This document shows, piece after piece, positions 56,107 through 57,757 of a stretch of DNA of 64,000 nucleotides. The DNA is taken from assembly GCF_900172325.1 (NCBI RefSeq), contig NZ_FWFR01000001.1, positions 434,001 to 498,000 of the forward strand, given 5' to 3'. The notes under the pieces are model-generated. The model worked only from the letters and a program-made list of their open reading frames with translations, made no database searches and was not told the origin of the DNA. The translations under genes and the position numbers were made by a program. How positions within the stretch are numbered: position 1 is the first letter of the stretch; each line of letters begins with the position of its first letter. This stretch comes from Oceanibacterium hippocampi (GTDB taxonomy: Bacteria; Pseudomonadota; Alphaproteobacteria; Sneathiellales; Sneathiellaceae).

Positions 56107-56952
56107 ATGAGCGAGCGACCGCAAGACGACGATACCGCGGCCCTGCTCGATCGCGTCGCCGCGGGCAATGGCGCGGCCTTCGCGGAACTCTACCGGCGCT
56201 GGGCGCCCCGCGCCCATGCCGAGGCGTTGCACCACCTGGGCGACGCCGAACGGGCCGAAGCCGCGTTGCAGGAAGGCTTCCTGCGGGTCTGGCACCAGGC
56301 CGGGTCGCAGCCCGGTGGCCCGGACCGGGCCTGGCTCATGACCCTGTTCGAGGCGGCGATCGCCAGTTATGGCGACGGGCCGGTCGCCTGCGACTTCACC
56401 CGCGAACCGGTGCCGCCACCGGCACGGATCTGGCAGGGCGTTGCGCTGGTCACCAGCGGCAGTCGCGGCGGACGCGACGAGGACGACGGGCGGCGGCGAA
56501 GACCGGGCGCCCGCATGTCCGGTCCGACGCCGGCGACCATGCCACCCTTCTGGCGGCGGCCGCGGGTTCTGGCCATGGTCTTCGCCGTGGGCGCGCTGAT
56601 ATTCGTGGCCGGCCGATACGACCGGTCACCGCCGGCCGAGCCCGGCGAGGCGCACTGGTACATTCATGTCGACCTGGCGGAGCATGAGATCACGGTACGT
56701 CCCGATCCGGCCCTGAAGGGCACCGGCGACAGCACGCTGATGCTGTGGCTCGACCCGGGCGCGCCCGAGGTCCTCGTCCCGGTCGGCGCGCTCTGGCCGG
56801 ACCGGGAGACGCATCTGCCGGCCACGCGCGCCGTCGCCCGTTCGCTCGCCAAGGCCAGGCGTTTCGTCATCACCCGCGAGACGGGCACCGCCGAGCTAAT
56901 CCGGCAGCCCACCGGACCGATCCTGTTCGAGGGGCCACTGCCGCCCGGGTGA
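56107..56952 (+). CDS. fusion-like protein: sigma region 2-like segment plus RskA-like anti-sigma segment
   Basis: The 281-residue protein starts at the ATG at 56107. Residues 1-90 resemble region 2 of an ECF sigma factor (LLDRVAAGNGAAFAELYRRW, AEAALQEGFLRVWHQA). No region 4 follows. Residues 100-125 hold the PPPARIWQGVALV linker seen in RskA anti-sigma factors. A basic stretch, one TM segment (VLAMVFAVGALIFVAGRY, 154-171) and an RskA C-terminal domain follow (LMLWLDPGAPEVLVPVGALW, QPTGPILFEGPL). This is a joined sigma/anti-sigma, either by deletion between two once-adjacent genes or a deliberate fusion. It begins 25 bp after maeB. Confidence 0.75.
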   Translation: MSERPQDDDTAALLDRVAAGNGAAFAELYRRWAPRAHAEALHHLGDAERAEAALQEGFLRVWHQAGSQPGGPDRAWLMTLFEAAIASYGDGPVACDFTREPVPPPARIWQGVALVTSGSRGGRDEDDGRRRRPGARMSGPTPATMPPFWRRPRVLAMVFAVGALIFVAGRYDRSPPAEPGEAHWYIHVDLAEHEITVRPDPALKGTGDSTLMLWLDPGAPEVLVPVGALWPDRETHLPATRAVARSLAKARRFVITRETGTAELIRQPTGPILFEGPLPPG

Positions 56953-57157
56953 GCCTTCCGACGGGCCCGCGCACGCGGGAGCCCGCGGATGCGAAAAAAA
57001 TCCCGCATGCCGACATCCGCCGGAGATATTTCGGCGTATCATTCATTAGTGTTCGGTGCTGCATCCGACACCCGGCTGTTCGCCGCCGTGCCGGCAACGC
57101 CGGCCGCCGCGTCCGACTGACGCGGCTCGCTCGAAAACAAAGGAAGGAACTTCCCCC

Positions 57158-57757
57158 ATGTCCACCAATCAATTCGTTGCCGAAAGGCTGATTGTGCCGG
57201 CGCGTCGCGTGTTTATGAGCGATGTCGGGAAGGCCGCGCTCTCGGCGAGCGCCGTGGCAATCCTCGCCGGTTGCGAGAGCATGGCGTCCGGCCAGGCCGA
57301 CACGTCCGCCTCGGATGCCGAGATTCTCAACGTCGCCCTCGGTCTTGAACATGAGGCGATCGGCGCGTACCAGCTCGGCGCCGAAAGCGGCCTGCTGCAG
57401 AAGCCGGTGCTCGACGTCGCGGTGCTGTTCCAGAGCCATCACAAGGCCCATCGCGACGCCCTGATGGGCGCGATCTCGAAACTCGGCGGGGCGCCCGTCG
57501 AATCGAAGAGCCTGGACGACTACGCCGCCTCGCTCGGCGCCGCCTCGCTGAAGAGCCAGACAGACGTCCTGATGCTCGCCGCGAAGCTCGAGAAGGGCGC
57601 GGCGAATGCCTATCTGGGCGTCATTCCGTCCTTCGGCGATCGAAATATCGCCCAGGTCGCCGGCCGTCTCGCGGCCGACGAAACGATGCACTGGACGGCC
57701 CTTGCCGGCGCCCTCGGCCAGCCGCTGCCGCAGAATGCACTGACCTTCGGCGCCTGA
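57158..57757 (+). CDS. ferritin-like domain lipoprotein
   Basis: The 199-residue protein starts at the ATG at 57158 with AAGGAAGGA upstream. It has a hydrophobic N-terminus with a lipobox-like SAVAILAGC, suggesting an outer-envelope lipoprotein. The mature part is a ferritin-like helical bundle with putative metal ligands in LGLEHEAIGAYQLGAES, FQSHHKAHRD, LEKGAANAYLGVIPSF and ADETMHWTAL. Enzymatic role is unknown; iron or peroxide handling is possible. The sigma/anti-sigma-like gene lies 205 bp upstream. Confidence 0.85.
   Translation: MSTNQFVAERLIVPARRVFMSDVGKAALSASAVAILAGCESMASGQADTSASDAEILNVALGLEHEAIGAYQLGAESGLLQKPVLDVAVLFQSHHKAHRDALMGAISKLGGAPVESKSLDDYAASLGAASLKSQTDVLMLAAKLEKGAANAYLGVIPSFGDRNIAQVAGRLAADETMHWTALAGALGQPLPQNALTFGA

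Follow-up and report, generated by a model that had tools for sequence, protein, structure and literature searches.

A 281-residue reading frame joining SigK-type sigma region 2 to RskA-like sequence beside a ferritin-like gene: a probable deletion remnant

SigK-RskA systems pair an ECF sigma factor with a class I membrane anti-sigma factor: RskA keeps SigK bound until a signal sets SigK free to read its target genes. Here we describe a reading frame in a window of 64,000 nucleotides from Oceanibacterium hippocampi that encodes 281 amino acids and carries the same kind of region 2 and the same kind of linker-transmembrane (TM)-C-terminal part as SigK-RskA (4nqw). Moreover, relatives carry a complete SigK-RskA pair beside the same neighbour gene, which is ferritin-like. 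However, SigK and RskA are two proteins, whereas the frame encodes one, lacking both region 4 of the sigma factor and the anti-sigma domain.

Two kinds of single-chain protein offer further comparisons. IutY of Pseudomonas putida (ECF243) has a fused anti-sigma part, as do members of ECF48, ECF52, ECF53, and some of ECF36 (PMC8999054, PMC5411451). These fused ECFs share with the 281-residue protein a single membrane-bound chain built from sigma and anti-sigma sequence; their sigma factor, however, is complete and can be freed by proteolysis, while the protein described here is missing region 4 and the anti-sigma domain. Single-chain proteins of Reyranella and relatives, with a sigma-anti-sigma domain (ASD)-TM layout, likewise join a SigK-type sigma factor to RskA-type material next to a ferritin-like gene, but in these both sigma regions, 2 and 4, are present along with the anti-sigma domain, and RskA_C is absent. 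Judged from sequence comparison, the 281-residue frame is probably a worn-down remnant of a sigK-rskA-ferritin cluster, left by an in-frame deletion, rather than a new regulator.

The joined frame and its two halves

The genome carrying the window comprises 4.83 Mb in 18 contigs, is 99% complete, and holds one full-length copy of the joined frame. The frame begins 25 bases after the end of maeB, and the ferritin-like gene is the next one downstream (Table 1). A preliminary description of this DNA had read it as a single protein composed of an ECF sigma region 2 without region 4 and an RskA-like part, and the open frame, the Pfam and PDB matches, and a purpose-built HMM all agree with that reading.

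Table 1. Features of the joined frame and its surroundings (positions in the window)
Feature	Position	Strand	Evidence
Joined frame, 281 aa	56107..56952	+	Open reading frame
ECF sigma region 2, SigK type, residues ~7-79	56125..56343	+	Pfam, NCBIfam, PDB sequence match, fold
Zone holding the join, residues ~80-97	~56344..56397	+	Alignments
RskA minus its anti-sigma domain, residues 98-278	56398..56940	+	HMM of 16 relatives, alignment
Probable TM helix, residues 153-168	56563..56610	+	Run of uncharged hydrophobic residues aligned to the RskA TM helix in relatives; modelled as a helix with low pLDDT
-35-like element TGCATCCG, putative relic	57060..57067	+	Comparison with relatives; 98 bases upstream of the ferritin-like start
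Ferritin-like gene (PF13668), conserved neighbour	57158..57757	+	Pfam Ferritin_2, E 5.9e-24; synteny in relatives

In the N-terminal half, Pfam Sigma70_r2 matched residues 28-81 with 25.7 bits (cut-off, 24), and the top PDB sequence match was Mycobacterium tuberculosis SigK (4nqw; E 1.2e-5, residues 8-81). Region 4, the part that recognizes the -35 element, gave no Pfam match in the 281-residue protein and had no counterpart in the alignment with relatives. The preliminary description had staked the sigma assignment on a region 2 helix bundle, and AlphaFold, given an input alignment of 13 sequences with sigma factors among them, predicted such a bundle with confidence (pLDDT, ~90-97). The best structural match of the predicted region was again SigK 4nqw, over 83 residues with a Z score of 11.5 and an rmsd of 1.9 Å. 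In relatives, region 2 closes with a (nearly) invariant RN, which the 281-residue protein has lost.

For the C-terminal half, an HMM built from 16 RskA relatives aligned its positions 59-237, out of 241, to the protein from residue 98 onward with 32.6 bits, compared with a top score of 5.2 bits among 2000 shuffles. The linker, TM helix, and C-terminal domain thus follow one another in the RskA order, as had been proposed. Model positions 1-58, which correspond to the anti-sigma domain, have no counterpart in the protein apart from what may be left of helix 4. Pfam left the RskA part unmatched when searched with the whole protein and returned an RskA match of 19.9 bits, below the cut-off of 29.4, when searched with the C-terminus alone. 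The TM helix and RskA_C are therefore present by the HMM, though below the Pfam cut-off and without the EPxGGSPTG motif of RskA_C that is (nearly) invariant among relatives. The C-terminal beta domain matched structures of unrelated proteins, mostly with Z scores of 5-8. Searches of the same genome with PF10099 and with alignment A1 found no other RskA, and both also missed the joined frame itself; the RskA part is detectable with the isolated C-terminus or with a better alphaproteobacterial HMM. Between the halves, one alignment takes the zone holding the join for the end of region 2 and another for what is left of anti-sigma helix 4; this zone lies close to the interval of 56370-56430 that had been singled out earlier.

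Several properties of the frame count against decay. All 281 codons are still open, the region 2 and RskA segments both have gene-like codon usage (the linker does not), and region 2 has a confidently predicted fold. Random sequence would yield 4.4 stops per 281 codons, with a probability of 0.012 for none; this expectation is no test of selection because the joined frame descends from genes. The open frame and the confidently predicted bundle would suit a functional protein kept by selection, in which a membrane-tethered region 2 might act as a decoy or damper by binding core RNA polymerase or a foreign anti-sigma factor. The possible remnant of helix 4 would suit it too, as helix 4 of class I anti-sigma domains contacts sigma-2 (PMC7406223). 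We regard such a role as unlikely: conserved positions are degraded in both halves, no promoter-like site was found upstream of the frame, nor any sigma-70 promoter-like site near it, and the architecture was found nowhere else, being absent from the other genomes of a 385-genome sample of the class and from a GTDB scan with the 281-residue protein as direct query, which returned zero relatives. What remains of the decoy proposal on the positive side is a region 2 that is predicted to be foldable.

Intact clusters in relatives and the state of the halves

With the ferritin-like neighbour as the query, matches were found in 26 of the 385 genomes. At three of these loci, L074, L089, and L090 (genomes G147, G054, and G184), separate, overlapping sigK and rskA genes lie upstream of the ferritin gene, and the ferritin of G147 shares a clade with that of the window. 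Compared with these clusters, the 281-residue protein consists of the front of the first gene, sigK, and the back of the second, rskA; missing are exactly the 3' part of the sigma gene and the 5' part of the anti-sigma gene. Because relatives hold separate sigK and rskA genes at the same place, the join is most readily explained by an in-frame deletion. Starting from an ordinary sigK-rskA-ferritin cluster, such a deletion, roughly 450-500 bases long judging from gene lengths, would have taken out region 4 of the sigma factor along with the gene boundary and almost the entire anti-sigma domain, so that region 2 would run directly into the RskA linker, TM helix, and outer domain. With neither -35 recognition nor the normal sigma-binding domain in the product, the switch would no longer work, and the sequence would since have drifted under relaxed selection.

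To place each half among its relatives, we used leave-one-out scores. Region 2, taken as a segment that extended a few residues into the join, scored 57.1, whereas the lowest of 40 SigK-type sequences reached 96.9; the RskA part scored 48.4 against a minimum of 64.3 and a median of 153, below all 39 relatives. Because the relatives had been chosen for their HMM scores, the comparison set is tilted toward high scorers. A shorter region 2 segment compared with 60 broader ECF sequences scored 63.5 against a median of 92.4, with three genuine sigma factors lower. The ferritin neighbour, scored likewise, was normal (266.6 versus a median of 264.6). Degradation of both halves beside a normal neighbour fits the pattern of a once-real gene that has since been drifting.

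The same scores bear on a possible assembly artefact, in which a missing stretch would have collapsed two intact genes into one. The halves should then be as conserved as those of relatives, which they are not, so an assembly deletion is less likely; the frame also lies on a contig of 2.3 Mb, and we consider this account highly improbable. Of the two readings in the preliminary description, a dead fusion left by a deletion and a decoy, the first agrees best with the separate genes in relatives, the degraded halves, and the normal ferritin.

The putative ferritin promoter

Many ferritin-like and SigK-type sigma genes in relatives are preceded by a putative promoter dyad, TGCATCC-N16/17-CGTA, and the single-chain loci carry a putative variant, TGCATCC-N16/17-CGGGTA/T. 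The CGGGTA/T form was picked up by counting dyads, where it far exceeded shuffled sequences, and the CGTA form was recognized by eye from listed sites. One or the other form of this ECF-promoter-like dyad precedes such genes in L065-L091, L137-L151, L165, L168, and others. The window's ferritin gene retains the first half alone, as the -35-like TGCATCCG, with no -10 CGTA at the usual spacing. TGCATCC occurs seven times in the window, neither more rarely nor more commonly than expected by chance, and TGCATCCG therefore serves as supporting evidence only. Synteny and the putative motif suggest that the ferritin-like gene was probably among the targets of the ancestral sigma factor. Altogether, the low scores of the halves, the lost motifs, and a putative ferritin promoter without a -10 element suggest a decaying remnant.

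Single-chain proteins and other sigma loci

Single-chain sigma/anti-sigma proteins were found in G034, in G090, and at 15 named loci (L137-L151) from Reyranella, Rhodospirillales, one Rhodobiaceae MAG, and other alphaproteobacterial MAGs; besides L137-L151, the loci of such proteins are L080:2370-3308 (-) and L091:1720-2667 (-). Mostly ~312-337 aa long, they combine SigK-type regions 2 and 4 with an RskA-type anti-sigma domain and end in a hydrophobic segment, a layout that resembles IutY (PMC8999054, PMC5411451). A ferritin-like gene, mostly divergent, lies next to nearly all of them, with none in the stretch examined at L144. At G036:C73:9243-9953 (+), sigma and anti-sigma parts match within one frame that a single TAG interrupts; it is possibly an intermediate between the split and single-chain forms.

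Since proteins of this kind have a ferritin-like gene beside them in G034, in G090, and at most of the 15 named loci, the 281-residue frame could have arisen by an internal deletion in one such protein. This origin is very unlikely: what the 281-residue protein lacks, region 4 and the anti-sigma domain, is present in the single-chain proteins, whereas RskA_C, which it has, is absent from them, and the ferritin-like genes beside them belong to a different clade.

Two other types of sigma locus were observed, both of them present in the window's own genome. One, a second type of ferritin-like locus, has an upstream ECF sigma factor of ~230-258 aa with conserved Cys in a C-terminal extension (L076:1103-2558 (-); also L075, L081, L083, L085, and L086). 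The other, L032:1342-2648 (-), is from the window's genome and encodes an ECF sigma factor adjoining a cupin-type anti-sigma factor that appears ChrR-like by eye.

As a remnant of a sigK-rskA-ferritin cluster, the joined frame would be a case of ordinary gene decay, a snapshot of the loss of a sigma/anti-sigma switch while its probable target gene stays. The single-chain family is of greater import than this remnant: with their ferritin-like neighbours and shared promoter-like motif, these proteins offer a case in which to study how sigma/anti-sigma hybrids originate and are switched on.
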